Below are positions 5,201 to 26,853 of a stretch of DNA of 64,000 nucleotides, piece by piece. The position numbers and the translations under genes are program-made. Within the stretch, counting starts at the first letter, position 1; each line of letters opens with the position of its first letter. The DNA comes from a virus. The stretch spans positions 62,001 through 126,000 of the IMG/VR virus record IMGVR_UViG_3300028840_008160; one strand, written 5' to 3'. The notes under the pieces were generated by a model. It made no database searches. It was not told the origin of the DNA and was given only the letters and a program-made list of their open reading frames with translations.

Positions 5201-7164
5201 ATTCAGTTTATTTCAGATTATCACCGACAGGAGCAGCTGTAATCAACGTAGATTTAGGATTTACAGCTGCTGCTGATCAATCGACAATAAAATTAATGAT
5301 TGTTGGAAGATATCAAGTAACATCACCAACTGCAGGAAAGTATGTTAATGTGTTTGTGTATAATCATAATACTGCAGTATTTGATCAATTATCGGGCACA
5401 ACTACTAGATTTAATCATAATACTGTTGATGAAGCAAGAACATTTTTCTTACTTCCTGAACACGTGAATCCTTCATCACCGTATGATGTAACAATAAGAT
5501 TTATTTCAAGTGATACAAATGTAGCATCTGATTTATATCTTGATTATGTTAATGTTATTACGGTATCTGCTGCAGCTACTACTCCTGCAGAGGCAGCTAA
5601 AGCGGTTTGGGATCATCCATTGACTAATTTAGAGGATCAATTATCAGCTGGTGGTATATTGAGATCGTCTGGTGGACTTGTGTTTACTGAAGTTATTGCT
5701 GTTACAGATGCAAAAACATTTCGTATTGGTGCAAATCCTCCCGGAGGATCTGGTGCTGTCTGGATTGATCATGTATTGGTTTTTCATGATATATCTACAG
5801 GCGAATATCAATGCATACCAGTTCAGAGTGCAGATGCGTCTGGCAATATAGTTTTATATAGAAATTTATCAATAACACCTGTGATTGGAGATCAAGTTGC
5901 TATTTTAAATGAAACAATGGTAAAAGGACTGTCGACAAGTGCTGTTGATAGCATTGTTGATACTACATGGAATGAATTAAGAAGTGAACACATTAGTGCA
6001 GGGTCATTTGGTCAAGGAGTTGCTAGTGTACAAGGCAATGTAACTGGTAATGTTCAAGGCAATGTAGTTGGTTCTATAGGGTCATTAGCTACACAAGCAA
6101 AAGCAGATGTTAATGCTGAAGTTGATCAAGCTTTGCTTGATTATGATGCACCAACTAAAGCAGAATTAGATGCTGTTGAAGATAACATTCGTGGTGCAGA
6201 TAATGATAATCTTAAAACGTTATCTGATCAACTTGATTCAGTTCAAACATCGATTGATGGCATTTCAAATGTTACTAGATTGTCAGTGGCATTACCTGTT
6301 TATATGCAGCGGCCGTCATCAGGTGATAAGCCCATACTTGTTGAAGTTGCATTAAAAGATATTGATGGGAATATGGAAGATCCAGACAGCAATCAGTTAG
6401 CATTAACAGTATATAATTCGTCTGGAACTAATAGAAATACTTTCTTGTATCAAGATGTAGCTTTTACAACCCCGTTGGTTGCTGGAACTGGTACGTTTGT
6501 TGGATATAGACAATTGTTGAGAACTGGTACAGGTTTGTATAAGTTTTACTATCGATTGGCAGATTCTCATCCAGAAGAAGAATTGATATTCAAATTTGGT
6601 TGGGAAGAAAGTTCAATAGCGCTTTATGAGTATAGATCATCACAAGTAACTGATGCAGCAAGTGATATTTCTCAAATAGCATCTGATGTTACTGGTATTA
6701 AGGGTCAAACTGATAAGATAAGATTTGATGGTGCTGATAGAGTAATTACTGATGCTGAAGCAATATCTGCATCAACTACAGCAGCTGATCAGTTACAAGC
6801 AAATATTTCTAAATTAGATGTAAATGTTTCAACTAGATCTAGTCATACGGCTGCTCAGGCAGGGACAGATGCTGCAAGCAAGATATTGGTAACTCCAGCT
6901 AATAAACTTGGTACTGATGTTAGTGGTCGTATTGAAATATCTGGAACAAAAAATACGTTAGATGTGTTAGAAGATATTTCAGTTAGCGATATTTTAAGTG
7001 GTAATGTTGATGGAAAAACTGTCGAGGCTGTACTAGAAGTGCTGCTGTCATATTCACAAGGTAAGATAATAAAATCAGGAAGCAATTATACGTACTATAA
7101 GCAAGACAATGCGACATCGTTGTTTACATTGACAGCGTCACCAACTAGTAGGACTAGGTCATAA
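2290..7164 (+). CDS. Giant repeat-containing tail or fibre protein, 1624 aa
   Basis: A modular structural protein. Residues 1-100 form a beta domain (WFPVILVDENNY onward). A 32-residue unit (DTNEIQGKLPTN-IMGSS) occurs eight times in three arrays beginning at residues 171, 504 and 799, and is likely helical or coiled coil. An Ig-like domain with the signature GNMEDPDNNEI occurs three times, starting near residues 313, 606 and 1327. A short GTP-ALDGGSAT element occurs near residues 116 and 897. Residues about 1130-1215 form another beta domain. Ig domains alternating with coiled coil suggest a long trimeric appendage. GGGAG precedes the ATG, and the stop overlaps the next start (TAATG). The attachment site on the virion is unknown. 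Confidence 0.7.
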   Translation: MEGKKSTDKWFPVILVDENNYKTPETGKAFGDITVKYSYEAATSATTATITVSDWTEVGEGNYWVQLGNPEFANEGKYQVEVQCTGCYTYRFPVEVTDKTFAEVTDIIDTLNTNIGTPTALDGGSATIASNLVKLADDNDGASYDATTDSQRAIRSAIDVVDGNVDDILVDTNEIQGKLPTNYIMGSSVQTDKDDEIDAILVDTNEIQGKLPTNYIMGSSVQSDKDDEIDSIKSTVDTNLDTTVSSRAAPGDAMDLVADAIKATTYDESTAYPITDADTGATRIARTGADGDTLETLSDQIDGVQTSVDGIQNNTRFVATVPTNMLVPDTGTTMYKITVHFYDSDGNMEDPDNNEIDVLYESVDGTDKDAFFDDAGGITGATAGTIDANMWKMVRISTGVYETYYKLPNTETPEQWTASFKLEEASTLLQYARSTNVVDENPGSITLADNTTNKDIIAEALKERDVSGTGAVSGSIYKDINDNIDANETKIDNVQTDVTSILADTNEIQGKLPTNYIMGSSVQTDKDDEIDAILADTNEMQGKLPTNNIMGSSDKDNHDTDIDAILVDTNEMQGKLPTNNIMGSSDKADYDDNITNIETIVTNVSNNTRFAASYPTQAIIPATGNDVIELAAYFYNFTGDMEDPDSLEIAIVLEDVSGTAKTALYDDYALTTPATVSSTFPGFYKMIRQGQGRYRIYYAVPSTEMPEQWSIKYILNENSTTLRYQYVMGIVDAASVTGSVTLADTGTNRDIIAESLKTQDVSSTAAVTGSVYDDIMDNIDANETKIDNVQTDVTAILADTNEIQVKLPTNNIMGSSDKSDHDDEIAAILVDTNEMQGKLPTNNIMGSSDKDNHDTDIDAILIDTNEMQGKLPTNNIMGSSDKADYNDNITNIETRIGTPVALDGGSATVSSMLTKMADDNGGASFDATTDSQTAIADNIAKIIPIDNLATSQALNSGVIDVGSYTDTHTINSVYFRLSPTGAAVINVDLGFTAAADQSTIKLMIVGRYQVTSPTAGKYVNVFVYNHNTAVFDQLSGTTTRFNHNTVDEARTFFLLPEHVNPSSPYDVTIRFISSDTNVASDLYLDYVNVITVSAAATTPAEAAKAVWDHPLTNLEDQLSAGGILRSSGGLVFTEVIAVTDAKTFRIGANPPGGSGAVWIDHVLVFHDISTGEYQCIPVQSADASGNIVLYRNLSITPVIGDQVAILNETMVKGLSTSAVDSIVDTTWNELRSEHISAGSFGQGVASVQGNVTGNVQGNVVGSIGSLATQAKADVNAEVDQALLDYDAPTKAELDAVEDNIRGADNDNLKTLSDQLDSVQTSIDGISNVTRLSVALPVYMQRPSSGDKPILVEVALKDIDGNMEDPDSNQLALTVYNSSGTNRNTFLYQDVAFTTPLVAGTGTFVGYRQLLRTGTGLYKFYYRLADSHPEEELIFKFGWEESSIALYEYRSSQVTDAASDISQIASDVTGIKGQTDKIRFDGADRVITDAEAISASTTAADQLQANISKLDVNVSTRSSHTAAQAGTDAASKILVTPANKLGTDVSGRIEISGTKNTLDVLEDISVSDILSGNVDGKTVEAVLEVLLSYSQGKIIKSGSNYTYYKQDNATSLFTLTASPTSRTRS
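2800..2991 (+). repeat. 96-bp coding repeat, array 1 (2 copies)
   Basis: Two tandem in-frame 96-bp units starting at 2800 and 2896, each encoding DTNEIQGKLPTNYIMGSS and a charged tail. The two proteins are nearly identical but the DNA differs at many third positions, so the duplication is not recent or is held by protein-level selection. Confidence 0.85.
3799..4086 (+). repeat. 96-bp coding repeat, array 2 (3 copies)
   Basis: Three in-frame units at 3799, 3895 and 3991. The first keeps the VQTDKDDEID tail of array 1. The later ones carry the DKDNHDTDID-type tail seen again in array 3. Confidence 0.85.
4684..4971 (+). repeat. 96-bp coding repeat, array 3 (3 copies)
   Basis: Three in-frame units at 4684, 4780 and 4876. 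Array 3 begins 885 bp after array 2 with one Ig-like domain between, so a larger Ig-plus-array block was duplicated as well. Confidence 0.85.
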
Positions 7165-8753
7165 TGGCTGGCTTAGTTAGTGATTATGTATCAACTTTTA
7201 CTGGTGGATGGTTTAATCTTGATGGTGAACTACCCACTGTAGAAGATACATTTACTGGCGGTTGGTGGGAAACTGCAAATGGCCCTGGTGATTTAATTTA
7301 CCAGGGCTCTGAAGTCGATGGGCCTGGAGTTAAAGTCGGTGTTAGTGTTGACAGCGAATTGCTTTATCCAGGGTCTGAAATTGATGGAAATGGTACAGAA
7401 GTTGTTGAAGCAGATGTATTGCTATTGTATCAAGATTCTGAAATTGAAGGATACGGTGCTAGAGTAAGCGATTCTACTTCATCAACATTAGACAAACAAG
7501 ATTCTGAGATTATAAGCACAGGTGTTAGAGTTGGTGAAGCAACAGTTATATTAGAGAAACAAGATTCTGAGATAGTTGGTGTTGGTGTAAAAATCGGTGT
7601 TACGACTGTAATTCTTAATAAGCAAGATTCAGAAATTGATGGTGACGGAATAAAAATTGGTGTTGATTCTGGTGTATTACAATACCAAGGCTCTGAAATT
7701 GATAGTGACGGAATTAAAATTAGTGTAAGTGCTTTAATAATTAATAAAGAAGATTCTGAGATTGAATGCGACGGCATACGTATTGTACCGACGACGGTTT
7801 TATTAGTAAAGCAAGATTCAGAAATAATTAGCACTGGTGCAAGAGTTATTGAAGGTAGTGGTTTATTAGTTTATCAAGATTCTGAAATTGATGGTACTGG
7901 CGCTAGAGTTTCTACTGGTTCTGGTGTGTTGATCTATCAAGGTTCAGAGATTGATGGATTAGGTGAAAAGTTATACACCGGTATAGCATTACTCAATAAA
8001 CAAAATTCTCAAATTTTAGCCAATGGTGTGAAAATTGGCGAAGCTGTTGTTATTTTAGAAAAGCAAGATTCAGAAATAGATAGTACTGGATATAAGATTG
8101 GATTAAGCACATCTAGTTTGCTCATATACCAAGGTTCAGAGATCGAAGGAACTGGCGACAAACTAGCATCTGGTGAAGGAATACTTGATTATCAAGGGTC
8201 TGTAATTGTTGGAACTGGTGGCATTGCTCAATACTTAATATATCAAGGTTCTGAAATTGTTGCGACTGGTATTAAGATTAATTATGGTAGTGGTTTACTT
8301 ATTTATGGTGGATCAGATATTAAAGGTTTTGGTCAAGGCGCAGGTCCTTGTGATGCATTAACGATTTATTTTGAGAAAAATGGTCAACCATTTGATCCAT
8401 TTTCTGTACGTTATACTATTTATGATCCTTGTGGCAACATTGTACGAGGACAAGAAAATCGAGAAGCAGATTGGGCTGATATCGGGTCTTATTATGCGCT
8501 TGCTAATTTTCTTTGTTCACCGACAGCAAATAGTATAATGCCAGGCATATATAAAATTGTTTGGATGATACAGGAAACTTACATTAGTCAGTTAATATCA
8601 AAAGCTAATACATTCTCTGTGTATCATGATAGAAGAGAAGGATGTCAGATTAGAGATGATATTACATCGACAGATGGCGAAGGTCAATTACAATCTGGTA
8701 CTTGTAATACGCCCGAATATGGTGATACAACAACCTGTGGTTGTCAAACATAG
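7164..8753 (+). CDS. Repeat protein with 17 short beta repeats and an Ig-like C-terminus
   Basis: 529 aa. Residues about 46-390 are 17 consecutive units of about 21 residues with the consensus L-YQ-(D/G)SEI-G-G-(K/R)(I/V), ending in a hydrophobic pair. This looks like a beta-solenoid or repetitive beta-sheet shaft. Residues about 395-500 form a beta domain (FEKNGQPFDPFSVRYTIYDP ... GSYY ... G-YKIVW) that matches the N-terminal domain of the next gene. The tail has several cysteines (last residues TTCGCQT). The start overlaps the previous stop as TAATG. Inferred to be an extended virion decoration or appendage. I know no named family for the repeat. Confidence 0.65.
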   Translation: MAGLVSDYVSTFTGGWFNLDGELPTVEDTFTGGWWETANGPGDLIYQGSEVDGPGVKVGVSVDSELLYPGSEIDGNGTEVVEADVLLLYQDSEIEGYGARVSDSTSSTLDKQDSEIISTGVRVGEATVILEKQDSEIVGVGVKIGVTTVILNKQDSEIDGDGIKIGVDSGVLQYQGSEIDSDGIKISVSALIINKEDSEIECDGIRIVPTTVLLVKQDSEIISTGARVIEGSGLLVYQDSEIDGTGARVSTGSGVLIYQGSEIDGLGEKLYTGIALLNKQNSQILANGVKIGEAVVILEKQDSEIDSTGYKIGLSTSSLLIYQGSEIEGTGDKLASGEGILDYQGSVIVGTGGIAQYLIYQGSEIVATGIKINYGSGLLIYGGSDIKGFGQGAGPCDALTIYFEKNGQPFDPFSVRYTIYDPCGNIVRGQENREADWADIGSYYALANFLCSPTANSIMPGIYKIVWMIQETYISQLISKANTFSVYHDRREGCQIRDDITSTDGEGQLQSGTCNTPEYGDTTTCGCQT

Positions 8754-11395: not shown

Positions 11396-14157
11396 TACGC
11401 TTTCAAAGTTATTCACCTGAAAAGAATGCAGTAGGTGTATCAAGAACTTCGCCTATATATTTCGAGATACGTAATGACGGGACAGTAGCTGACAAAACTA
11501 CGCTTAACGTGACGGTTGATGGAAATAATGTTATAGTTAATGGTGTGTTTCAAGCAGGTTATGCTGGAATAATTGACGATCATACTCGAGGATATAATGT
11601 TTACATAACACAAAACTTACCATTTGCACAAGGTTCTGATATTGTAGTTACGATAAATATTAACACTGAGTTTAACGATGTCTATTCGTTTACAATAATC
11701 ACATCTGATGTTACTGCTCCGGTGACAATTGCTAATCCCAGAGGCAGTACATATGCTTCTGCACAGGATGTACAATTATTGACTAATGAACCAGCTACGA
11801 CTTACTATACTATTAATGGATCACTACCTAGTACATCATCACTAGTGTATTCTGCGCCCATACCAATAACAGAAAACACTATATTACGATTTTTTAGTGA
11901 AGATTCTGATTCAAACACTGAATATATTCATACTGAAATGTATGTTATTGATATACAGGCGGTTGATACTAACGCGCCAATTACTACTCCAAATATTGCT
12001 GGTGGAACATATCATGTATTAAGTTCAATAATTTTGACAGCAGATGAACCGTCTACTATCTATTGGACGATAAATGGTCAAACTCCAACTGTTAATTCGT
12101 ATGATGGTAAAGACACATCGCCTGTAACAATTCAATTGCAACAAGGAACAACTGTTTTAAAGTTTTTTGCAGTTGATGATCATGGAAATGAAGAAACTGT
12201 AAAATCTGAAACGTATATAATTGATCCCAGAGAAAACAACATAGTTCCAAAAAATGTGTTTGTGAGCCATCCATATATCAAGAATACGGTTGATATTTGC
12301 TGGGATGACATGACGCCGATTGAATCTGATATTGTAGGGTATAATGTATATCGATCGCAAGTTGATGGTCAACAACTTATGGATTTAGTATCACATGATA
12401 CACTTACTTCTGAAGATGTATACACAAAAGAGCCAGGTACGTTTGTCAAAATTAATAACCAACTCATAACTGTGCCGTTTTATCGTGATCAACAATTAGA
12501 TAGAATCGTAACGCAAGAAGATGTGTCTGAACAATTTAAGTTTAAGACATTGGCTGATGCAGCAACTGATTTTAGTGGTCAAATTGTAAATGCTGACTAT
12601 TGGGAAGCTATTGATCCGGATCGATTGTTTAATCAGTCAGATGGTATTCATTTTACTGATGTTTATGGTGGAAGTAAAGAAGCTTATTTTCAATCAAAAT
12701 TCAGAATGCGTAATGATTTTGAGATTGAAACAGCATATGAACAAATTGTATGGCCGGTGACAGATAATATTCGTCAAGAAGAAATGGCCTTTATTATTGC
12801 TGTAAATCAGTATACGTGCATTGAATTATCACGTATTAGACGCGAAGCCTATGATTATTATGTAAGTAGATTAATAGTGAATTCGCAAGAAATAAGTAAA
12901 GTTGAAACACAGACGATGGATTCAAAAGGACAAATAAAAATTGTTCGTTATGATAGCAATGTTTCAACATATTATTATGATGGGATAAGCTGGGTATTGT
13001 TAGAATCATATTTAAGTTTTTCTCGAGATGATTTGCAAGTAAGATTTTATGCTGTAAGTGCAGATAAACCTATTGATGTATTGTTTTCGTATTTTCACAT
13101 TAATTCAGGTAATGCATATTTGCCGTTATTAAAAAATGTTGATGGTCAGTATTGTATTCAAACACAACATAAACCAATTATAGGAACAGATGATAAAGAA
13201 TATACTGATAGTATTAATGAAGTTGAAGTCATTATTGATGGCCAAGTTGCTTTAATTGATAGAGTTGATGGTTTAAAAGGAACAATCATTCTTAAGACAG
13301 AGCGAGAATTTGATTATGTATTGGACAAATGGATTGAACCTGTTATTCCAACGCCTGAGTCGATTGCGACCGTGACTTATAAGTATAGATTGGCAGAGCT
13401 TAAGTTAAATTTACGAAGATTTCCTCATTATAAAGTTACTGCTGTACTTAGTAATGGTAGCGAAACAAGATTGTCATGGTGTACGTCTGTAACATTACAA
13501 TCTGAGAAATTAGACTATATGTATCGAGAAGCTATTAGAAGAAATGCTTGGTTGTTAGATCAAGCTGGTGAACGTGTCTTGTTGTTTATTAAGAAAACAA
13601 CAGGTGAAAGATGTCAGTGTTATAGATTAAATCAACGAACTCATAAACAACCAAAAGTTGGCAGTTGTTTAGAGTGCTGGGGCACTGGATTTATTGGCGG
13701 TTATGTTGGTCCGTTTGAAATAAAGATTTCACCGTTTCAGGCTGAACAAAAAATTACAATGACAGATCGCGGAATGCATCTTGACAATGTTGAAGATACG
13801 TGGACGACAATAACACCAGTAATAACACAGCGTGATTTTATTGTTCGTAGGAACGGTCAAATATATGCAATAGGTCCTGCTGCTAGACCTGAAGTTAAAG
13901 GTGAACCTACTCAACAACATTTTTCTGTAGAACACGTTGATTCAACAGATATACGATATAAATTTGTACAGTCATTAAATTTGTATGGATATCAGGATAG
14001 AGTTGGATTGAGAAAGGGTACAGATCATTATACTGAAAATCCAATAATTACAGATGGTGAAGTGACTGAACATGACAGACAACGCACTGATAAAGGACCG
14101 ACCGTAACTAATGTTAAAAGAGGTCGAACAATAACATTTGAGAACACGCTTTACTAA
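11392..14157 (+). CDS. Neck or tail multi-domain protein with Ig-like domains and zinc ribbon, 921 aa
   Basis: Domains in order: a Big_5-like Ig domain (1-105), two chitobiase C-terminal-like domains (about 108-190 and 195-280, with YYTINGSLPS and YWTINGQTPT), and an FN3-like domain (about 284-330, IVGYNVYRSQ). Next is an EDVS-type module that starts near residue 380 and appears to resume after residue 580, around a roughly 200-residue insertion. A Cys cluster C741-x-C743 ... C759-xx-C762 with GTGFIGGY follows, a zinc-ribbon pattern I associate with a conserved large-phage structural protein. The C-terminus is beta-rich. Position before the HK97-gp10-like protein favours a neck or tail-terminus role. 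Ig domains may bind surface glycans. Confidence 0.65.
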   Translation: MIRFQSYSPEKNAVGVSRTSPIYFEIRNDGTVADKTTLNVTVDGNNVIVNGVFQAGYAGIIDDHTRGYNVYITQNLPFAQGSDIVVTININTEFNDVYSFTIITSDVTAPVTIANPRGSTYASAQDVQLLTNEPATTYYTINGSLPSTSSLVYSAPIPITENTILRFFSEDSDSNTEYIHTEMYVIDIQAVDTNAPITTPNIAGGTYHVLSSIILTADEPSTIYWTINGQTPTVNSYDGKDTSPVTIQLQQGTTVLKFFAVDDHGNEETVKSETYIIDPRENNIVPKNVFVSHPYIKNTVDICWDDMTPIESDIVGYNVYRSQVDGQQLMDLVSHDTLTSEDVYTKEPGTFVKINNQLITVPFYRDQQLDRIVTQEDVSEQFKFKTLADAATDFSGQIVNADYWEAIDPDRLFNQSDGIHFTDVYGGSKEAYFQSKFRMRNDFEIETAYEQIVWPVTDNIRQEEMAFIIAVNQYTCIELSRIRREAYDYYVSRLIVNSQEISKVETQTMDSKGQIKIVRYDSNVSTYYYDGISWVLLESYLSFSRDDLQVRFYAVSADKPIDVLFSYFHINSGNAYLPLLKNVDGQYCIQTQHKPIIGTDDKEYTDSINEVEVIIDGQVALIDRVDGLKGTIILKTEREFDYVLDKWIEPVIPTPESIATVTYKYRLAELKLNLRRFPHYKVTAVLSNGSETRLSWCTSVTLQSEKLDYMYREAIRRNAWLLDQAGERVLLFIKKTTGERCQCYRLNQRTHKQPKVGSCLECWGTGFIGGYVGPFEIKISPFQAEQKITMTDRGMHLDNVEDTWTTITPVITQRDFIVRRNGQIYAIGPAARPEVKGEPTQQHFSVEHVDSTDIRYKFVQSLNLYGYQDRVGLRKGTDHYTENPIITDGEVTEHDRQRTDKGPTVTNVKRGRTITFENTLY

Positions 14158-14194
14158 ATGTTGATAAGTTCTGTAATAAAAAAAGGAGAATCCT

Positions 14195-14677
14195 ATGTCT
14201 TATGTTCAAACAGCTGAAGCAAAAATGAGACAGCAAGAACATGATGATAGAGAAAGATTATTTGACGATCATGATGGTTTTATGTATACGGCTGCATCAT
14301 TTATTAGCGGGAATTATACTATAGATCAAGATGATGCACGAGACATAATGAAGTATTTGCATTTGGATTTAGTAAAAGTATTAGATATATTTCCTAAGAA
14401 TAAAATAGATGAAAATGGCGATATAATCAACATTGTAATGAATGTCGGTGACACTATACAAGCACAGGCTGTTCTTCTTTATAGAGATAGTGATCATATA
14501 GATAAGGATGTAACGGGATATGCCGATTGCGAATGGATTACAGATCCATCGCCGACGACGTTTTTGACAGTGTCTCAAGGTTTGATTACTGCCACTTTAA
14601 CAAGTACTGCTGATGTTGAAGTATATGCTAAAATTGGAGATTTTGAATCGCAAAGAATTAGGATAGAGGTGGCATAA
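14195..14677 (+). CDS. Structural protein with Ig-like C-terminal domain, 160 aa
   Basis: The N-terminal 70 residues are helical and charged (KMRQQEHDDRERLFDDHDGF). Residues about 80-160 look like a bacterial Ig-like (BIG2-type) domain: GDTIQAQAVLLYRD, then a DCEWITDPS strand, FLTVSQGLITA, and a closing ADVEVYAKIG. AAAGGAG precedes the ATG. The stop overlaps the next start. A virion role is inferred from the Ig fold and neighbours. Confidence 0.6.
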   Translation: MSYVQTAEAKMRQQEHDDRERLFDDHDGFMYTAASFISGNYTIDQDDARDIMKYLHLDLVKVLDIFPKNKIDENGDIINIVMNVGDTIQAQAVLLYRDSDHIDKDVTGYADCEWITDPSPTTFLTVSQGLITATLTSTADVEVYAKIGDFESQRIRIEVA

Positions 14678-15096
14678 TGTATGATAATGGCGTATCAATT
14701 GCTCCAACTAGACGTTTAGGTCAACCGAGAACAAGCATAAATGATCAAGGTCATTTACCATTAGGATCAAAGATTGCAAATGTCAGTCAGAAGTTTAATG
14801 ATGATACAGAAATAACTACAACTAGAACAGTGCATGTTCAAGATCCAGTAGCAAGAAACGAAAACTATATTGATGATCAGCGATTGACACCTGAGTCTAG
14901 AGATTTAGTTGGTAAAAAAGCACCGAATATGCCGACAACTGAATTTGATCAGTCAATTATGAATACTTTTAATGCTAAAACAAATGAAAATATGACATTA
15001 AATGAAGTTAAAGAACGTAAATTATCGTGTTATAATTTGGTTTCATTTCCGTTTACACAAGCAAAACCATTTGAATTGCCATCATGCCAAAGCTAA
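14677..15096 (+). CDS. Hypothetical protein, 139 aa
   Basis: No family recognised. Low-complexity hydrophilic sequence, probably extended or disordered, with LGQPRTSINDQGHLPLGSKI near the N-terminus and a more hydrophobic end (LVSFPFTQAKPFELPSCQS). It starts in TAATG overlap with the preceding gene behind a GAGGTGG site, and overlaps the next gene by 13 bases. Tight coupling to connector-like genes suggests a small neck or tail-completion component. Confidence 0.5.
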   Translation: MYDNGVSIAPTRRLGQPRTSINDQGHLPLGSKIANVSQKFNDDTEITTTRTVHVQDPVARNENYIDDQRLTPESRDLVGKKAPNMPTTEFDQSIMNTFNAKTNENMTLNEVKERKLSCYNLVSFPFTQAKPFELPSCQS

Positions 15097-15347
15097 GTGT
15101 TAGACGGTTACCATTACGATTTGAGATTGAACAGTCACATAAAGTGAAAATTCATGAAATGCGACGAAAAGCAAAATATGATGTTGCGTTAACATTAGGA
15201 TTACCAATAGAACATAGATTAGTTAATCTAGTTTATGACGCATCGCAAAAACGCGTAAAGATTCTATTAACTAATGATGATGAACTTTTGAAATATAGAC
15301 AAATGCTTAACAACAAATTTCATATAGAGGTTCGTGAATGCAATTAA
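15084..15347 (+). CDS. Hypothetical basic protein, 87 aa
   Basis: No family recognised. The first half is rich in Arg and Lys (SVRRLPLRFEIEQSHKVKIHEMRRKAKY). The second half is alternating beta/alpha (HRLVNLVYDASQKRVKILLTND). The ribosome site is weak, so translation probably depends on coupling with the upstream gene it overlaps. It overlaps the next gene by ten bases. The arrangement of small overlapping ORFs before an HK97-gp10-like gene is typical of head-tail joining modules, which is the only hint of function. Confidence 0.5.
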   Translation: MPKLSVRRLPLRFEIEQSHKVKIHEMRRKAKYDVALTLGLPIEHRLVNLVYDASQKRVKILLTNDDELLKYRQMLNNKFHIEVRECN

Positions 15348-15790
15348 AAATGCGATATCTACATTTCAACTCGTCTGCATTACGAGAAGCTAGAGGTCGC
15401 ATTATTGATGAAACTGCACGTAAAGGTGTTCAAATTTTTAGACAAGAAATAAGAAGAAGAAGGCTTATTAATACAGGTCATATGTTAGATAGTGTTGGTG
15501 CAACAATTAAACGAAATAGTGTAACATTTGACATAAATGCTGATTATGCTGGTATAATAAACGATGGTGTTCGTCGACATAAAATGAGATATTTAGTTGA
15601 TGCAGGACCAATTCCATTAGTTACTAGACGTGGTCGTAAGATTTTTAGAGTTGCAACGCCTTCAAATATAAGAGAACGAGATCGATGGTTACATCCGGGA
15701 TTCAAACGTGGCAAGGGATTCTTTGATAAAAGTGCAGATAAAATTGAAGCTGTTGCAAAAGAGCTTATAATAGATGAAGGTATAATATGA
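15338..15790 (+). CDS. HK97-gp10-like tail completion/neck protein, 150 aa
   Basis: The layout of the HK97 gp10-like family is visible: an N-terminal helix (ALREARGRIIDETARKGVQIFRQEIRRR), then INTGHMLDSV, a beta strand ending in ADYAGIINDGVRRH, and a C-terminal WLHPGFKRGKGFFDKSADKIEAVAKEL. Family members sit at the head-tail interface and help complete the tail top. Length is normal for the family. GAGG at about 15326 supports ATG 15338 over the in-frame ATG at 15350. Confidence 0.65.
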   Translation: MQLKMRYLHFNSSALREARGRIIDETARKGVQIFRQEIRRRRLINTGHMLDSVGATIKRNSVTFDINADYAGIINDGVRRHKMRYLVDAGPIPLVTRRGRKIFRVATPSNIRERDRWLHPGFKRGKGFFDKSADKIEAVAKELIIDEGII

Positions 15791-15817
15791 ACAATTTAAC
15801 GATTAATGAAGGTATAT

Positions 15818-16525
15818 ATGAATGTGCAACTTAATAATGGTCAACTTGGTGATAGAATATGGCATCAGCATACTAGGGCTTTAATGCCAGAGTATGTACG
15901 AGTTATTGGTCGTGTTATCGGCAAAGTTTTTATTCGTGATATCGCTAAAGAAGTTAGATACAATCAAGTTGTTGATATTTTGATAACTGATGCTAAACGA
16001 TCTGATGACTTGGTTAGAGCAATTTCTCAAAAATGGGTTGACATAGTTTACGGAAAAGAATTTTTAGACAAAAAGAAATATTCATCAGAGATTCTACGTC
16101 AACCGTCACAGACGCAATTTGTAACCAATAACGCTAGACAGACTGTTGATTTAAGTGAAGTTAAAGTTTTAGCATCTCAAATTGCACAAGATGCTGCAAA
16201 TAGATCAGTAATGTCAATTAGAGAGTCATTGGATGAATTACAAGAATCAATTAAGAATTCAAAAAGTTCATCAATTGATGTTGACCAAGTTATAAAAGAG
16301 TTGACGACTAAATTGCCACAACAAGCACAAGTCAATGAAAAATCTAAATTTGATGATGAAATTGCTAATAACGTATTTATTAATCTTGACGAACAGAAAG
16401 AGCTAAAAACAAATATACAACAAGACGGTTTGGGGACTGTTACGAAGCGCAAAGGTAAGAAAGCCAAGATGACAATTAAACGATTAAAACATATTAACAA
16501 AGGAGATGGTAATGGAAATGTCTAG
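15818..16525 (+). CDS. Hypothetical neck-region protein with coiled coil and basic tail, 235 aa
   Basis: ATG 15818 is preferred over ATG 15806 because GAAGG at 15809-15813 precedes only the later codon. Residues 1-90 are a compact mixed domain (LGDRIWHQHTRALMPEYVRVIGRVIGKVFIRDI). Residues about 115-160 are a probable coiled coil (SIRESLDELQESIKNS). The last 30 residues are strongly basic (TKRKGKKAKMTIKRLKHINKG) and may bind nucleic acid. It overlaps the actin-like ATPase gene by 14 bases, so the two are likely translated together and could be partners. Function unknown. Confidence 0.6.
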   Translation: MNVQLNNGQLGDRIWHQHTRALMPEYVRVIGRVIGKVFIRDIAKEVRYNQVVDILITDAKRSDDLVRAISQKWVDIVYGKEFLDKKKYSSEILRQPSQTQFVTNNARQTVDLSEVKVLASQIAQDAANRSVMSIRESLDELQESIKNSKSSSIDVDQVIKELTTKLPQQAQVNEKSKFDDEIANNVFINLDEQKELKTNIQQDGLGTVTKRKGKKAKMTIKRLKHINKGDGNGNV

Positions 16526-17660
16526 CCCTAAGAAAATTCGACGGCATCGATCACGTGAGGAGAAGCGTCAACTTCGTGAAGATACTAATGAAGAGACCCA
16601 AGATACTCAAAAAGTTCAGACACAAGAGGAAGAAAAAGTAGTGAAGGCAAAAGTTAAACGTAGATTTGGTGTAGGTTTAGATATAGGAACATCATTTATT
16701 AATAGAGCGACTATTGATGATGATGACGATATTGATATCAGAACGCAACGAGATGCATTTTTTGATATCGAAAATGATAAATTTGCAAGGAATATGTTGA
16801 CGACAAATAATGCAAATTATATCGTATCTGACGATTCAAAATTATTATATGTAATTGGTCAGGAAGCAATCAATTTCGCTAATGTATTCAAGCGTGAAGT
16901 TCGTAGGCCTCTGCATAAAGGTGTGATTAGTACAAGGGAACCCGAAGCATTATTGATGATTAAGACAATCATTACTAATATATTAGGTAAACCTGTAACA
17001 GAAAATGAAGTTTGTCAATTTTCAGTGCCGGCTGAGCCTATTGATGCAGATTACAATATCATATATCATAGAAACATTTTACAATCGTTTGTCGAATCTG
17101 CTGGATATAAAGCAGTACCGATCAATGAGGCTAGAGCTGTTTGTTATTCAGAATTAGATGACGACGGATTTACTGGTCTTGCTATTAGTTTTGGTGCTGG
17201 TATGGTGAATGTGTCATTAACATATATGGGTGCAGGATCAATTGAGTTTAGTTTGTCAAGAGCAGGTGATTGGATTGATGAGAATGCAGCAAAAGCTATT
17301 GGTGAGAGAGCAACAAAAATGGTTGCTGTAAAAGAAGCTGGTCTTGATTTATTGAAACCAAAAGATAGATATGAAGAGTCAATCAGCATCTTTTATCGTA
17401 ATTTTATAGCATATGTCGTAAAAAAGTTTGAACAGAAATTGTCGCAAACTGAAGATATTCCAGAATTTCCTGAACCTATTACTATTATTTTGGCAGGTGG
17501 AACGTCACTTGTGAAATCATTTGATGTTGTGTTTAAGCAAGAAATTGATAAGATTAAGTTACCGTTTAGAATCAAAGAAATCAAACTAGCTGAAGATCAA
17601 TTATTTGCTGTTGCAAAAGGTTGTCTATATTCTGCATTGTCTGAATACGAAGATGAATAA
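16512..17660 (+). CDS. Actin/Hsp70-fold ATPase-like protein, 382 aa
   Basis: After a charged, probably disordered 50-residue N-terminus come the ASKHA landmarks: phosphate-1 GLDIGTS (Asp57, Gly59, Thr60), connect-1 PLHKGVISTREPEALLMI, a conserved glutamate in INEARA (Glu206), a phosphate-2-like LAISFGAGMVNV (residues 223-234), and an adenosine motif ILAGGTS (Gly329-Gly330). The phosphate-2 aspartate of typical family members is replaced by Ser226, so ATP may be bound but hydrolysed poorly. Length suits ParM/MreB/FtsA-like filaments. Start 16512 is chosen because AGGAG at 16501-16505 abuts ATG 16506 but is correctly spaced for 16512. A filament, segregation or assembly-chaperone role is inference. 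Confidence 0.75.
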   Translation: MEMSSPKKIRRHRSREEKRQLREDTNEETQDTQKVQTQEEEKVVKAKVKRRFGVGLDIGTSFINRATIDDDDDIDIRTQRDAFFDIENDKFARNMLTTNNANYIVSDDSKLLYVIGQEAINFANVFKREVRRPLHKGVISTREPEALLMIKTIITNILGKPVTENEVCQFSVPAEPIDADYNIIYHRNILQSFVESAGYKAVPINEARAVCYSELDDDGFTGLAISFGAGMVNVSLTYMGAGSIEFSLSRAGDWIDENAAKAIGERATKMVAVKEAGLDLLKPKDRYEESISIFYRNFIAYVVKKFEQKLSQTEDIPEFPEPITIILAGGTSLVKSFDVVFKQEIDKIKLPFRIKEIKLAEDQLFAVAKGCLYSALSEYEDE

Positions 17661-17671
17661 AGGAGGAAACT

Positions 17672-17950
17672 ATGTCGAATTCAGAGAACAAGATTGTTAG
17701 TAAAATTGTAAAAGAAGCTAACATTGGAATAAAGAAACAAGCGAAATTGTTTAATCGCGATGATATCGTGACACTTGTCGACCAAGTACAAGGATTAAAT
17801 AAAGGAACGAATTACAAAGTTATTGATAATTCAAATCCTGGGTATATTACGATTGCTACATTTGATCCGTCTGATAGTGATGATACTATTGGGGAAAGAA
17901 TTGGTGAATTTAGAACTGATAGATTCGTCCATGTCAACGATGTGTACTAA
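17672..17950 (+). CDS. Small SH3-like hypothetical protein, 92 aa
   Basis: The C-terminal 65 residues read as a small beta barrel (FNRDDIVTLVDQVQGLNKGTNYKVIDN, GYITIATF, FRTDRFVHVNDVY) after a basic N-terminal helix. SH3-like barrels of this size are common in phage joining proteins, but no specific family is recognised. A strong AAGGAGG site precedes the ATG, 11 bases after the ATPase gene. Confidence 0.55.
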   Translation: MSNSENKIVSKIVKEANIGIKKQAKLFNRDDIVTLVDQVQGLNKGTNYKVIDNSNPGYITIATFDPSDSDDTIGERIGEFRTDRFVHVNDVY

Positions 17951-17958
17951 GGTTAATA

Positions 17959-19164
17959 ATGTTTTACAGAATAACAAATGTTGTTAAAAAAATTATCATT
18001 CAAGAGTTACAAGAGCTCTTTAAGGATCATCCTGTTTTTAGTGATGAATTAGTTATCACTAATAAGTATTCATTTGAAGAACGTCCAAAATATGCTATAA
18101 TTGTTAAAACAGCATCTGCTAAATCACAAAAACTGTCATTAGATAATTATAAGGGAATTGTTCAATCATATGTTACTTTAGCTAATTTAAAGAACACTCC
18201 TGGTCGCATGATAGAATGGGTTAGAGAAGATGTAGCAAACATAAGTAATGTAGTTAAGCCCGGATTTTATGTTGTTGAAATGGTAGAAGATGATCAATTT
18301 ACAGTGTCTGCTTATCTTACTGTTGCTGATGAAGTGTTAACGATTGAGACGAATGGTTTTGAACATGCTTTTTTACAACATCAAAACATTAATCCTAACA
18401 GTGAATTAGTTTTGACAGAAACTGGTCGAAGATTACAACCTAACGAGCATTATACGATTGATAATAGCACGGGTGAAATTACTTTTTTGCAACCAACAGA
18501 AGATTATGAAACTATTTCTGTTGATTATCAATACATTGGTAATGTTACTGGACCGTTTACTGTTCAACCAGAAACAGTTGATCAATTGGCAATACCAGGT
18601 GTTGTTTTAGCATTTGGTAATTTTTTAAAGAAGGGTGGTTTACAAGTAGTAGTTGTGTATCCTGACAGACAAGAAGTAGCAAAATCATATTTAGGCAAAT
18701 GGAATATGACATTAAGTTTGGGTGCGGTTGCTCAAGACACTGATACACAAGAACAATTGATAGATTTAGCATCTATGTATATATGGTCTGTATTACAAGA
18801 AAAATTAGTTAATGATGGTATATATGTGTCAGAATTTAATATTGGTGGTGAATCTGAAGATGATGAAGTGAAGAGTGCTAATGAATTATCGTATATGGGT
18901 GATTTATCGTTTAATGTTGATGTTGAATGGGAAGCTTTTCAACCAATTCTCGGTGTAATTAAGAACGTGTTTCTTAATCGTGTCGAAGATTTTGGACAAT
19001 ATGATGATGCAGAACATGAAATTAGAAGTAAACGACCGTTTAATATATCGCAAAGAGGAGTTGACTACATGACAGGTTTACAACCTGTTGAAAATTTAGA
19101 TCCTTTCCTGATAAGACCTCTTCCAAAATATACTCTGGTGCAATCAAGCACGCACGTTGGGTAG
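17959..19164 (+). CDS. Tail terminator or connector-like structural protein, 401 aa
   Basis: Residues 1-130 and 200-350 together look like a tail-completion or sheath-terminator type alpha/beta protein (MIEWVREDVANIS; AFGNFLKKGGLQVVVVYPDRQEVAKSYLGKWNMTLSL). Between them, at about residues 134-195, sits an inserted beta module with YTIDNSTGEITFLQP and VDYQYIG, related to modules in the baseplate proteins further right. The position just after the neck genes and before the sheath fits a tail-terminator role. The assignment rests on context and pattern only. Confidence 0.5.
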   Translation: MFYRITNVVKKIIIQELQELFKDHPVFSDELVITNKYSFEERPKYAIIVKTASAKSQKLSLDNYKGIVQSYVTLANLKNTPGRMIEWVREDVANISNVVKPGFYVVEMVEDDQFTVSAYLTVADEVLTIETNGFEHAFLQHQNINPNSELVLTETGRRLQPNEHYTIDNSTGEITFLQPTEDYETISVDYQYIGNVTGPFTVQPETVDQLAIPGVVLAFGNFLKKGGLQVVVVYPDRQEVAKSYLGKWNMTLSLGAVAQDTDTQEQLIDLASMYIWSVLQEKLVNDGIYVSEFNIGGESEDDEVKSANELSYMGDLSFNVDVEWEAFQPILGVIKNVFLNRVEDFGQYDDAEHEIRSKRPFNISQRGVDYMTGLQPVENLDPFLIRPLPKYTLVQSSTHVG

Positions 19165-19171
19165 AAAAATT

Positions 19172-19348
19172 ATGAATGATGAACAAATCATTCATGACAT
19201 AGTTCACGAATTGTCAAGTGAAAAGAAAAAACCCACAGGTCATCCGGCAAGTAGGCGTTTGCCCAAAAGAGTATATATGGATGTCGCTATACCGGCAGTT
19301 GGTGACTGGCCAAAATATAGCGATCCCATCAAAAGTCGCGAACAATAA
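19172..19348 (+). CDS. Small basic hypothetical protein, 58 aa
   Basis: ATG 19172 is taken as the start; an in-frame TTG at 19157 would add five residues and overlap the previous gene. The ribosome site is weak. The product is hydrophilic with a proline- and basic-rich middle (KKKPTGHPASRRLPKRVYMD). No family recognised. It lies at the end of the neck block, before an 87-base spacer. Confidence 0.4.
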   Translation: MNDEQIIHDIVHELSSEKKKPTGHPASRRLPKRVYMDVAIPAVGDWPKYSDPIKSREQ

Positions 19349-19435
19349 TCATTTCTTTATTTTTATACTATTTTTGATAATTGTATCATCTAGTTTTAAG
19401 GTGAAAAGTCTTTTCATTATTGGGAGTCAGATTAT
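19349..19435 (+). promoter_or_regulatory. Spacer before tail fibre gene with two short palindromes
   Basis: The AT-rich 87-base gap contains TGATA-ATTG-TATCA, a five-base stem with four-base loop (about 19375-19388), and a near-perfect 15-base palindrome TGAAAAGTCTTTTCA at 19402-19416. A TATACT hexamer lies at 19364-19369 without a good -35 box. GGGAG precedes the fibre ATG. It could be a weak promoter or operator, or simply a leader; the evidence is slight. Confidence 0.3.
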
Positions 19436-22400
19436 ATGAGTCAACCCTATGTCGGCAATTATTCATACAGCATTAACGATTTAGAGACTAGTTCTAAAAA
19501 GCGTTATTTGATGGCGGGTCAAAAAGGAAAACCCGTTTTAGATGAAGAACTTTCTGAAGTTAATTTCAGAAATTTTGATCTTAAAAGACGCATTTGGGAG
19601 CGTAATGCTGGTGATGCTGCATTGGGTCGTGATTCATTTGAAATTGTCCAAAGTTCAACAACGACTGTTAGTAACTTCACGATAAAAGGTGGGACAGCTG
19701 AAGATCCAGCTGTGCTATTTATACAAGGCTATCCGCTATTACTCTTTGGCGACATCGAATATAATCAACAAAACAATACTGGCGCGTTAACTGATGATGA
19801 CTATACAGAGACATTAATTCCTGGAATAAGTACGCCTACGTCTGATCGCACAGATACAGTTTATGTTGATTGCTATTTAGCCGAAGTTAGTTCTGAAACT
19901 GGCAGTGAATATCAAGATCCAGCGATTAAAGATGCTGTCTTGGGATTACAGACTGCTAATAGGTTTAGAATTGTTCAAGATATACGAGTTGAAGAAGGAT
20001 CAACGACGATACCTATTGACGGTGTTGATGGCAATGGTATATATCATAGATATTATAAGTTAGCAGAACTTGATAGGCATAATGGTGTGCCTGATATTTA
20101 TACAGCTGATATTACTGACATGCGAACAGTTACGACGTCGCTTAAGGAAATATCAAATGGATATGGTGATATTCATGTAAGAAATGCTATTGTCGATAAT
20201 GATCTTGATGTTCATGGCACACTTACAATCATTAATACATCTGAAACTAATCAAGAAAAATTAGTTATCACTTGCAATGACCCTGGCGTTGTTGCAATGG
20301 TAGTTAACAAGTCAGAAAATGGTGATGCAGTTCAAATCAATAAGACATCAGGCACCGGCTATGCATTGATTGTTAACAGCGGTTATGTCGGCATTAATAC
20401 AAGTGCACCATCTGAGGCACTTTTCATTCATCAACAACGTTTGGGCATATTGGGTTCAAATGGCGCACAAATACGTTTGTCTGGAAATGATCATACTGCT
20501 GGCGCTTTATATACAACAAATAACTATCCATTGTATTTAGGTGTAAATAATATAGCTGAAAGAATTGTAATAGCGGCAACAACTGGTTATGTTGGTATTC
20601 ATACTACAAACCCAAGTAACGAATTAGATGTTAATGGTACAATTAGAATTAGAGGTGGATTGCCAGCTGCTGGCAATTTATTACAGTCAGATGCAACAGG
20701 TGTTGGCACATGGGTTAGTCAGTCATCTATTGATGATAATGACTGGGTAGAAAGTGGAAATGATGTTTACTTTAATAAATCAGGCAATGTTGGAATTAAT
20801 ACATCTTCTCCGTCAAACGCTAAACTTGACGTTAATGGTCAAATAAGAATGCGTACAGATGCCGCATCTGGAAAGATTATAATTTCAGATGCAAATGGTG
20901 TAATGAGTTGGGTTAGTCAAACAGCGATTAGTGACGGTGACTGGGTTGTTAGTGGAAGTAATGTTTATAACAACACTGGCAATATTGGCATAGGCACTAG
21001 CAACCCAACAAAGAAATTTGCTGTTCAAGCAGCTGCATCTGATGGTATGTATTTATGGAATAGTTCGTCTGCAGAACGAGGAAAATTAGCATTTGATGCA
21101 TCATCAAATGCAGTATTAGAATTAAGGAATGCAGCTGGTAATCCGCAAGTTCTTTTAGATTCTAGCACTGGTGCTAATTATATATTTGCCGGAGATACAG
21201 GTATTGGTACTGCTACTCCTGGTGCAAAACTTGATGTTGAAGGCAATTTTAGAGTACTGAACGGTACAACTATTAATGAGTTTTCAACTGATGGAACATT
21301 AGCAGGTGACTCTGATGACGCTGTACCGACTGAGAAAGCTGTCAAAACATATATTGATCAATATAGTCATTGGATTAAAACGTCGACAACAGTGCATTTA
21401 CAAACAGGATCTAATAATGTTGGTATAGGTACTGCATCATCGACATATAAATTAAGAGTAGAAGGCACATCATATTTGAATGGTTCAACTGATATTAAAG
21501 GTGATTTGACAATTACTGATCAGGATTCTACTGATGTTATTGTTAAAATGTATGATAGTGGTGATGATGGTGTTATTGATGTTTATCAAAATAATGCTGT
21601 TACAACTAAAATTCATGGTAATGGAACAAGCTATTTTAAAGGTGGTAGCGTTGGAATAGGAACAGAAACGCCTGCTACAACACTTGATGTTGAAGGTACA
21701 CTTAGAGTATTGAATGGCACGTCAATTAATGAATTTTCAACAGATGGTACAATGGCTGGTGATTCAGACGACGCTGTGCCAACAGAAAAAGCTGTCAGAA
21801 CTTATGTTACTAGTAATGCTGGTCAGTGGAATAGAATATCATCGGTGTTGTCGCCGAAGACAATAACAGATGGTGTTAGTGTCGGTCAAACTGCCGGAGT
21901 CGCAAATACACTTTCAGTTAATGGTAGAGTATCTGTTACTGGTACTAGCACTACACAATCAGCAATTTATAGTATTGCAGGCGGACCTGGTGCAGCTGTG
22001 CAGGCTGTTCAGGATAATGCAAATGGTTATGCTATTGAATCTAATGCTTCTGATACTACAGGATATATTTTGATTGGTAAAAGTGGTGCAAGTACAAGAT
22101 TTACAATGAGGGGTAGTGGTAATACTCGTTGGGCAGCTGGTGGAATAGCTATAAATGAAGCTGAAGTTTCAACTACTGGTTATTTACAAGCTACTGGTCG
22201 TATAGTATGTACTGGTACTAGTACTACACTAGCAGCAATTCAGGGTATTGGAAGCGGTGGTCCTGGTGTATATGCTATACAAGATACTGCAAGTCGTTAT
22301 GCTATTGAATCTGTTGTTTCTGATGATACAGCATATAATTTATTTTGCAAAAGTGGTGCAAGTACAAGATTTACAATGAGGGGTAGTGGTGATACTCGTT

Positions 22401-23715: not shown

Positions 23716-26478
23716 ATGGCAGCATTTGTATCAGGCTATCTTGCGCCGGGTGTATATGATAGAACTCTCTTGGACCCCAATGTCGCTAGTTTAATTGGTG
23801 GACTAAGAATTCCTGTCATAGTTGGAACGGCTAATGAAGAAAAACTTCTTTTGAATCAGGATATGATTCGTGGGTCATCAGCATCTGTTGATAATAAAGC
23901 ATCTAATGAAGATTTATCATCACAAGCTGATGGTTCTAATACTGTATTCCAAGTTTTGTATTACCCAATTGTTACAGGCGAAGGTTCAGGTATAGTTACA
24001 AGTCGTGTGTCAGATGTCATTGTAAGTGTGAATAATCAGCCAGTACCAGTTGTTAGAGTTGACGGATTGAATGGATTAGTGACCACACAGCTTCCGCCAA
24101 AAGACAATGATACAGTCACTATTACATATTATTTTAAGTTGACTGATACTAAGATTGACAATGAAGATGTTTCTGCTCAAGCTGATGGTTCAAATGTGTT
24201 GTTCTATACTGCTCATAAACCGATAGTTGATGGTCGTGGTAGTGGAACGCCTACTACTTCAATAACAGATGTTGTTGTTAAAGTAAATGGTTTGTTAGCA
24301 AATATATCTGAAGTTAGTGGTATTGAAGGAACTGTTACATTGTTAACTGCTCCAGCTGGTGGAGCTACTGTGACAGTGTCATATTGGTTTAATGAGCATT
24401 CAGACACTTTTGACTTGTTGCCTCAAGACAAATTGACAACTGTTATTCAGGTTGGTGATTCGCCTGATTTAGCAAACTATGTTGAAGGTGTTGACTTTAT
24501 CATTCTTGATGGTAATAAAATTCAATGGGGCGCTGGATATAAGATTGACATTATCACTCATACTACAGGTGCTGTGTATTTTGAAGATCAAATTTCAGTG
24601 CTTCTTGTTGACGATCATATTATCAAAGAGGATGTTTCTAGTCAGTTTACTGGTGTCGAGAATTCATGTGTCGTTACTTATCTACCAATTGTTGACGGTA
24701 ACGGCCGTGACATTATTACTTATGATCCACAAAAAGTCAAAGCATACATTAACGACGTTGAGACAACAGTTATTAGGGTTGACGGTGCAACAGGAACCAT
24801 TTATTTGTCAACAACACCGTTAATTACTGATGTTGTTGAAGTCTCATATTACAGAAATGAGATGATTGACGAAACGTATGCTATTGCTGTTGTTACAGCT
24901 GGTATTGCTGGAACTGGCACATATAAAGTTTCAACGCAGATTCAAGGTTCGCTGTATCATGTGAAGATGACTAACTATACGACAACACCTACACCGACGT
25001 TTATGTCATCGGTTGGTGCGTATACTAAGACTAGTAAGAATAAAGCTGTAGATGAAGTAGTAACGTTGACTTTTACAAGTGCAACTGAATTTACAGTGAC
25101 GTCTACAAATGGTTCTGGATCTGGTTCTGGAGCAACAACTTCAGGAAAGACAGGTCATACTTACATCGATGCAGTTACCGGATTGCAGTTTACTATTACA
25201 CCTGATGGGACTTATCAAGTAGGTGAAACTATTGAACTTACTAGTCATAATGATGATGTTCCTGGTACAAGAACTGGTGGCCCTGGAACTGGTGATGCTG
25301 GCCCATTTGAAACAGGTGTGTCGGAAACTGTTTATACTGTGCCAGGTATCAGATTGATTGTTACTGACACAGAGAATACTGCATCAGGTGACACAACAAA
25401 TGTTCAGACATATGATAAAGCTGGTAATGAACCTGTTGTTGGATCGACGTATTACATGAGTTACTATTATGAAAAGACTGATTATACGCCGAAGATTTTC
25501 ACAAGGTTCAAAGATATTACGTCTGAATATGGAAACATGGACATTGGCAACCAAATCACATTAACAGCATTCTTGATGATGATTAACGGTGCTGTAGCTG
25601 TTATGTGCAAGCAAATTCTTAAAGAGCCAGGTGAACAAATAGCTGCTGATCAGACGTACATTCTTGCTCTTAAAGAACTTGAGAAGCCAGTTAGTGGTAT
25701 TAGACCAAGAGTAATTCATCTTTGTACCACTTCTTCGTCAGTTATTTCTGCTCTTAAGACACATTTAGCTCAAATGTCTTCAGAACGTCGTCGGTCTGAA
25801 AGAACAGCATTTATTGGCTTTGCTGTTGGGACTGAACCTCAGGATGCTGCGCAATTTGCTCGATCACTTAGTTATGGCCGTATTGTTGCAGTTTATCCTG
25901 ATGGTGCAGTTGTTGCATTAACTGACGAACGCGGCGTTGAATCTGAGTACATCGTTGATGGTAGTTATATGGCTGCTGCTATGGCTGGATTGAATGTTAG
26001 CACAGCTTATGATGTAGCCGAACCAATGACTCGTAAGACAATCACTGGTTTCAAACGGCTTATTCGTGCTATGGACGATGTTGAAATGGATGAGGCTGCT
26101 GCTGCGGGTATCACTATTATTGAGGATCAATCTGGTATCATGAAGATTCGTCATGCACTGACGACTGATATCAGCAATCCATTTAATAAGGCACCGAACA
26201 TCATCACAATCATGGATGAAGTTCAAATTCAGGCTAGAAATGCACTAGACCAGTACATTGGTAAGAAATTCTTGCCGAATACGCCTGGTGATGTTATTGG
26301 TACTCTTGCAGCTACACTGTCTGCTCTTAAGGAAGGTGAAATTATTTCTGATTATGCTAACGTTACAGCTGAACCTTCCGACTTTGATCCTAACTACCTT
26401 GTATGTGAAGCATACTACAAGCCAGTGTTTGAATTGTCGTATATCAGGGTGACTTTCAATATTAGAGCGAAGCTTTAA
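23716..26478 (+). CDS. Tail sheath protein, 920 aa
   Basis: The N-terminus has the sheath-type opening (SGYLAPGVYDRTLLDPNVASL), and residues about 610-920 are a classic sheath C-terminal region (AFIGFAVGTEPQDAAQFARSL, GRIVAVYPDG, KKFLPNTPGDVIGTLAATL, ending FNIRAKL). At 920 residues it is longer than typical simple sheaths. The excess is mostly three copies of an EDVS-type Ig-like module at about residues 57-140, 141-228 and 299-385, which probably project outward from the sheath. Codon use looks richer in GC-ending codons than neighbours, as expected for high expression. It contracts around the tube during infection. Confidence 0.93.
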   Translation: MAAFVSGYLAPGVYDRTLLDPNVASLIGGLRIPVIVGTANEEKLLLNQDMIRGSSASVDNKASNEDLSSQADGSNTVFQVLYYPIVTGEGSGIVTSRVSDVIVSVNNQPVPVVRVDGLNGLVTTQLPPKDNDTVTITYYFKLTDTKIDNEDVSAQADGSNVLFYTAHKPIVDGRGSGTPTTSITDVVVKVNGLLANISEVSGIEGTVTLLTAPAGGATVTVSYWFNEHSDTFDLLPQDKLTTVIQVGDSPDLANYVEGVDFIILDGNKIQWGAGYKIDIITHTTGAVYFEDQISVLLVDDHIIKEDVSSQFTGVENSCVVTYLPIVDGNGRDIITYDPQKVKAYINDVETTVIRVDGATGTIYLSTTPLITDVVEVSYYRNEMIDETYAIAVVTAGIAGTGTYKVSTQIQGSLYHVKMTNYTTTPTPTFMSSVGAYTKTSKNKAVDEVVTLTFTSATEFTVTSTNGSGSGSGATTSGKTGHTYIDAVTGLQFTITPDGTYQVGETIELTSHNDDVPGTRTGGPGTGDAGPFETGVSETVYTVPGIRLIVTDTENTASGDTTNVQTYDKAGNEPVVGSTYYMSYYYEKTDYTPKIFTRFKDITSEYGNMDIGNQITLTAFLMMINGAVAVMCKQILKEPGEQIAADQTYILALKELEKPVSGIRPRVIHLCTTSSSVISALKTHLAQMSSERRRSERTAFIGFAVGTEPQDAAQFARSLSYGRIVAVYPDGAVVALTDERGVESEYIVDGSYMAAAMAGLNVSTAYDVAEPMTRKTITGFKRLIRAMDDVEMDEAAAAGITIIEDQSGIMKIRHALTTDISNPFNKAPNIITIMDEVQIQARNALDQYIGKKFLPNTPGDVIGTLAATLSALKEGEIISDYANVTAEPSDFDPNYLVCEAYYKPVFELSYIRVTFNIRAKL

Positions 26479-26481
26479 TAA

Positions 26482-26853
26482 ATGAAAAGAGCATTCAATA
26501 ATGCTAAATATCAAGACCAGCCTCGTTTTAAAGACGAGGCTGTGTCTTGGTCAGATGTATTGCCTCGGTGGCAGGATCGCATAAAAGTAAGTCCTGTTAG
26601 ATTAGAAGAAGGCGATTATCTATATGAAGATGAAAATGCAGATCGATTTAATGCTGGGCCTGACTTTAATCAAAAACATGGTCAACCCAGAGGATATGAT
26701 CCAATAAGTAAAAAGCCTGTTGATCGATTTGAAAGTGGAATACACGCTGACGATATTAGAGAACAGGTTTTTGTAGATGATTTGATAACTTCGTTTAATA
26801 ATGAAGAACGATTAATCAGAGACATATTAAAAAATGACACTGGAGGTAGCTAA
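26482..26853 (+). CDS. Hypothetical protein between sheath and tube, 123 aa
   Basis: No family recognised. Acidic and hydrophilic, probably extended (FNAGPDFNQKHGQPRGYDP), with a helical C-terminus (DDLITSFNNEERLIRDILKND). It starts three bases after the sheath stop and ends in TAATG overlap with the tube gene. Its place in the sheath-tube unit suggests a tail assembly or virion role. Confidence 0.6.
   Translation: MKRAFNNAKYQDQPRFKDEAVSWSDVLPRWQDRIKVSPVRLEEGDYLYEDENADRFNAGPDFNQKHGQPRGYDPISKKPVDRFESGIHADDIREQVFVDDLITSFNNEERLIRDILKNDTGGS

Follow-up and report, generated by a model that had tools for sequence, protein, structure and literature searches.

A volactin-family actin and its overlapping candidate adaptor gene in the neck/tail module of a giant phage

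A 64,000-nucleotide stretch of viral DNA (referred to here as the window), representing positions 62001-126000 of the 329.8 kilobase (kb) virus record IMGVR_UViG_3300028840_008160, was analysed and encodes an actin-fold protein of the volactin family (Pfam PF25216). The volactin gene lies at 16512-17660 on the plus strand, as do the adaptor, neck, tail and baseplate features located below, and its product of 382 amino acids (aa) has an MreB-like actin fold and belongs to the volactins, apart from the phage actins of the ParM or Alp type. The gene that overlaps its start (15806-16525; 239 aa) is, judged by its sequence, a second conserved component and a candidate volactin adaptor, with a predicted N-terminal beta domain, a helical linker and a short C-terminal basic helix. 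We put the chance at about one in two that phage volactin and this adaptor form a two-gene module of the late neck/tail operon, in which filaments are coupled to virion parts late in infection. Volactin membership, the fold, the gene order, the conserved partner and a tail motif held in common with the neighbours of cellular volactins are direct results.

The protein matched the Pfam Volactin model over profile positions 3-321 of 321 with 270.3 bits (cut-off 35; E 3.5e-80), whereas the Pfam MreB_Mbl model gave 27.7 bits, barely above its cut-off of 27. This weak score, set against 270 for volactin, and the replacement by serine of the aspartate found in the phosphate-2 DxG of MreB separate the protein from MreB, with which it shares its fold. 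No ParM- or ALP-type family was among its Pfam matches, and PHROGs contained no family for it. The AlphaFold2 model, built on 47 aligned relatives, had a predicted local distance difference test (pLDDT) score of 89.4 and a predicted template modelling score of 0.84, with low confidence in the first ~50 residues. Foldseek searches of solved structures ranked MreB, MamK and BeeR first (E down to 5e-15), MreB being the nearest solved fold, and placed FtsA and PilM below MreB and MamK on the whole fold, while the best matches among the BFVD viral models were Hsp70s and unnamed phage proteins, with no named volactin. An Hsp70/DnaK-like chaperone was rejected, as the chain of 382 aa stops where the actin fold does and has no substrate-binding second domain. 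An earlier note on the window, made from the letters alone, had proposed an actin/Hsp70-type fold and a structure prediction as the check; PF25216, AlphaFold2 and Foldseek all agree on an actin-like fold.

The phosphate-2 region reads ISFGAGMVN (17184-17210), with a serine that is invariant in the volactins examined in place of aspartate at residue 228 when counted from an alternative start at 16506. The numbering of the earlier note is lower by two (Glu206 = E208 and Ser226 = S228), and the motifs it had named (DIGTS, the glutamate, ISFGAG with its serine, and ILAGGTS) were all found again. The phosphate-1 DxGT, the conserved glutamate and the family-typical S-x-G-x-G are intact in the phage protein, and ISFGAGMVN has the S-x-G-x-G-M-x-N pattern of haloarchaeal volactins; the corresponding stretch is ISFGAGMTN in haloarchaeal volactins and ISCGGGMFN in those of Planctomycetota. 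Volactins were gathered through the neighbouring tail-terminator gene and the Pfam model, which avoids the bias of search patterns that contain the motif, and serine replaced aspartate in 67/67 phage volactins (one further row was gapped there) and in 22/22 and 59/59 cellular volactins, the two cellular sets partly overlapping. From these alignments SFGAG is a signature of the volactin family, and the term 'degenerate' that had been applied to this loop is misleading. The suggestion of a non-hydrolysing relative was not sustained, since the serine is also present in haloarchaeal volactins and the volactin of Haloferax volcanii forms dynamic filaments in vivo (PMC10869688). A non-hydrolysing decay product, rejected as an explanation of the serine as a local feature, is unlikely because the serine is family-wide and extends to the haloarchaeal relatives of that filament-forming protein. 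The phage volactin is not naturally interpreted as an inactive relative, and volactins may hydrolyse ATP by another route.

Profiles of the window genes were used to search 88 viral volactin loci, most of which are metagenomic fragments and whose co-occurrence counts share ancestry; the profile of a 921-aa gene at 11392 gave promiscuous matches and was excluded. The conserved order was neck1, partner, volactin, tail terminator and sheath. A terminator-like, sheath or tube gene was present within 9 kb on the same strand in 70 of the 81 loci with at least 5 kb of downstream sequence, and neck1 within 4 kb in 46 of the 67 viral loci with at least 3 kb upstream. The location of phage volactin in the tail module is deeply conserved, and the 70/81 count agrees with the tie to neck and tail genes, as opposed to replication or partition genes, that had been proposed for the window gene. 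In the reverse survey, 63 loci found through the terminator gene had enough upstream sequence, and volactin was present in 58 and the adaptor in 59 (both genes 58, neither 4, adaptor only 1, volactin only 0; Fisher 8e-6, for rows related by descent). The terminator gene closely follows neck1 in the 4 loci without the pair. The five terminator-found records without volactin contained none elsewhere in the record either, these records being possible fragments, and the isolate Tunturi_5 has no volactin. The pair is widely kept yet dispensable for a contractile tail, because it is missing from 4/63 loci and from Tunturi_5.

The genes around the pair in the window follow this order and confirm its neck/tail setting. 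The neck1 or tail-completion (HK97 gp10-like) protein at 15338-15790 (phrog_5, E 4.8e-8) is conserved 5' of volactin, a 92-aa open reading frame (ORF) without a significant family match lies at 17672-17950, and the tail-terminator-like protein at 17959-19164 (g401), kept between volactin and sheath, resembles gp324 of the Tunturiibacter phage Tunturi_5, annotated 'tail terminator' (22% over 200 aa, E 5e-5). Further downstream are the contractile tail sheath at 23716-26478 (phrog_2839, E 1.5e-29), a probable tail tube at 26853-27491 (assigned by its conserved position after the sheath, with no PHROG match), the tape measure protein at 29873-33313 (phrog_24, E 8.5e-11) and the baseplate wedge protein at 54271-57780 (phrog_6, E 2.7e-27). 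The wedge protein was also matched by the terminator-gene profile, perhaps through a shared domain.

The volactin open frame spans 16506-17660 (384 aa), and 382 aa are counted from the ATG at 16512. This start is the better one because a Shine-Dalgarno sequence read as AGGAG (16501-16505), within the 3' end of the adaptor gene, sits 6 nucleotides (nt) ahead of it; the ATG and the 14-nt overlap with the upstream ORF ending at 16525, both given in the earlier note, are retained with this start, and the upstream protein has the basic tail named there (net +9 over the final 40 residues). That protein, noted before only as coupled and basic-tailed, belongs to a family present in 74/88 viral volactin loci, with genes that overlap or nearly overlap volactin across loci. 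The family profile gave 75 matches among 6738 ORFs of viral loci, nearly all upstream of volactin, and the window adaptor was matched at E 1.2e-14 by a profile made without its close relatives. Iterative searches that began with the window group and those that began with distant members converged on one adaptor family (71 shared). Its members typically have a beta domain at the N terminus, a linker that varies and, at the C terminus, a basic helix of the form A-x-x-A-L-K-x-L-R-K-K; many also carry a FIPs-like motif, and none of the Pfam or PHROG families was matched repeatedly among them. The AlphaFold2 model of the window adaptor (mean pLDDT 71) is confident only over residues ~30-80 (>90), and Foldseek comparison of the model with the PDB gave no match and no DNA-binding fold. 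The predicted helix at residues 218-232 (16457-16501) is the putative volactin-binding peptide; a profile of this tail singles out genes beside cellular volactins. The overall reading of the earlier note therefore stood for the actin fold, the neck/tail tie and the coupled basic-tailed partner and fell for the non-hydrolysing interpretation, and it had missed the volactin identity and the role of the upstream gene in the system.

A tail profile built solely on the final 48 residues of phage adaptors was used to search 1020 ORFs of 16 cellular volactin loci. The top 7 ORFs (E 2.5e-5 to 0.095) all lay less than 100 nt from volactin on the same strand, and the matches after them had E >1 and were mostly non-neighbours; with 43/1020 ORFs satisfying a wider 150-nt neighbour rule, the chance is ~1.4e-10 if the ORFs are treated as independent, though the loci are related. 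These volactin-adjacent genes come from Haloarchaea, Planctomycetota and Omnitrophota. The haloarchaeal gene just upstream of volactin encodes 3-4 hydrophobic segments (simple hydropathy count) in 26/27 loci, and most of these neighbours have a tail such as VDDQTAKLKELREQ (single scores 1e-4 to >100). The study of H. volcanii volactin describes dynamic filaments in vivo whose tips bind the membrane, and gives the volactin-binding factors as unknown (PMC10869688). A membrane protein bearing this tail suggests itself as a candidate for such a factor, and the haloarchaeal neighbour, judged by its predicted segments and tail, would fit such tip-to-membrane anchoring. It is plausible, if short of probable, that a single adaptor-binding code is common to the volactins of giant phages, of Archaea and of several bacterial phyla, in which a short C-terminal basic helix is carried on differing anchors (haloarchaeal membrane proteins, other bacterial proteins and the phage beta domain), and that giant phages thereby link components of the virion to an actin cytoskeleton that they make themselves.

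At least 583 stretches in IMG/VR were found to encode relatives. Among cellular genomes, PF25216 scored above its cut-off in 90/394 genomes of the phylum holding Archaeoglobaceae and Haloarchaea, in 111/294 genomes of the Planctomycetota sample and in 8/285 of the Omnitrophota sample. Cellular volactins as misbinned phage contigs were considered and rejected: the sampled cellular loci gave no neck1, sheath, tube or terminator match and therefore look chromosomal. The phage volactin is about 39-41% identical to archaeal copies. A quick tree of 108 rows, to be read with care, placed 71 of 73 phage volactins in one group (support 85); the other two phage rows were long-branched and fell elsewhere. 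Omnitrophota volactins often occur as tandem pairs; the volactin-family actins of Planctomycetota and Omnitrophota are apparently undescribed in the volactin papers found, and the open frames of some second haloarchaeal copies are 767-1258 aa long, which may reflect fusion or a length due to chance in GC-rich DNA. The open-licence literature, judged by title and abstract, gave no account of volactins in phages, the papers that mention volactin being on archaea or reviews, and no isolate with the volactin-adaptor pair was present in the phage collection searched.

Under the proposed mechanism, volactin would form ATP-dependent dynamic filaments late in infection, and these would serve to move or space the particles being assembled in the host, or to tether them. 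Two known adaptors, arcadin-2 and ParR, place their C-terminal helices in the same groove of their actins, crenactin and ParM respectively (PMC5173319). By analogy we infer that the short basic helix of the phage adaptor would bind volactin, likeliest in that groove, and that its N-terminal part would bind a component of the head-neck or the tail. A broad and near-monophyletic set of phage volactins keeps its place between neck1 and terminator, which supports the two-gene module, and the presence of the pair in most of the related giant phages found suggests that such phages use their own cytoskeleton to build particles or to steer them. Several points weigh on the other side. Seven viral loci have volactin outside a recognisable tail module, and operon position can reflect timing rather than contact. 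The motif of the tail covers few residues, and several of its cellular matches are individually weak (E 0.05-0.1). Phage-volactin polymerisation, ATP hydrolysis, direct adaptor binding and a virion cargo are steps that we infer, and the virion target of the adaptor is drawn from gene position because its N-terminal domain has no recognised fold. In some of the seven off-module loci a small upstream gene also encodes a C-terminal basic helix.

The strict place between neck1 and tail terminator, in genes that overlap or nearly so, would also fit the pair as a non-filamentous ATP switch or structural part, acting as a neck-tail assembly factor or virion component. Actin-fold proteins such as PilM are non-filamentous assembly platforms, and PilM is among the Foldseek matches of the phage volactin. 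This is the strongest rival, and we consider it somewhat unlikely: absence of the pair from 4/63 terminator-found loci and from Tunturi_5 indicates that a neck-tail junction is possible without it, and archaeal members of the family form filaments (PMC10869688).

A phage volactin that co-assembles with, caps or redirects host filaments is improbable. Volactins are common in Planctomycetota (111/294) and present in Omnitrophota and Haloarchaea, which are possible hosts of some of the phages, and the adaptor tails of phages and cells are alike; however, a gene for host take-over would not usually be placed in a late operon, and the phage volactins form nearly one clade (71/73) with their own partner, which favours an internal function over repeated capture of host copies. 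An equally slim prospect is DNA segregation or positioning in the manner of AlpC-AlpA-alpS or ParMRC, in which the upstream gene would encode a DNA-binding adaptor: the two-gene layout with a small basic-tailed partner beside an actin recalls AlpAC (PMC5539076), but there is no supported partition-family match and the adaptor N-terminal domain has no DNA-binding fold match, and a partition system was rejected on the absence of an iteron-like array from the stretch searched (14100-19500) and on a gene order tied to neck/tail rather than replication or partition genes.

Other features of the record were noted beside these. Upstream of the neck genes, window positions 2290-8753 encode repetitive proteins of unknown role, including a 1624-aa protein with DTNEIQGKLPTNxIMGSS repeats and a 529-aa protein with QGSEIDGxG-type repeats. 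Outside the window, record positions 144,900-175,050 hold ~56 tRNA genes in a single block, with predicted suppressors (anticodons CTA at ~151,440 and TTA at ~158,885) and a four-base anticodon candidate; late in infection, stop codons may be reassigned.

VolA of H. volcanii (HVO_2015, PF25216) belongs to the same family and has the S-x-G-x-G phosphate-2 signature, and in haloarchaea, too, a partner gene whose product has a C-terminal tail of similar kind lies beside volactin; the phage copy differs in being viral and in a neck/tail operon, and its partner carries a soluble beta domain in place of membrane segments. The PhuZ tubulin of Chimalliviridae jumbo phages is also a cytoskeletal-fold protein of giant phages, and capsids traffic on its filaments (PMC13282480), but it has a tubulin rather than an actin fold and the function given here to phage volactin is a proposed one; no tubulin-family (PhuZ) gene was found in this phage genome. 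In prophage CGP3, the phage actin AlpC is beside an adaptor, AlpA, that alters filament dynamics (PMC5539076), whereas AlpA binds DNA sites and the volactin pair belongs to another sequence family, lies in a tail module and has no iteron array in the searched stretch. Crenactin with arcadin-2, in which the C-terminal helix of the adaptor lies in the actin groove (PMC5173319), is a model for the phage tail helix by analogy, with no sequence relation claimed. The common adaptor tail points to candidate volactin partners in Haloarchaea, among which H. volcanii is genetically tractable. The phage cytoskeletons known so far consist mainly of actins that segregate DNA and of the PhuZ tubulin found in phages that form a nucleus; if the reading given here is true, volactin with its own adaptor would be a second, separate phage cytoskeletal strategy, linked to particle assembly.
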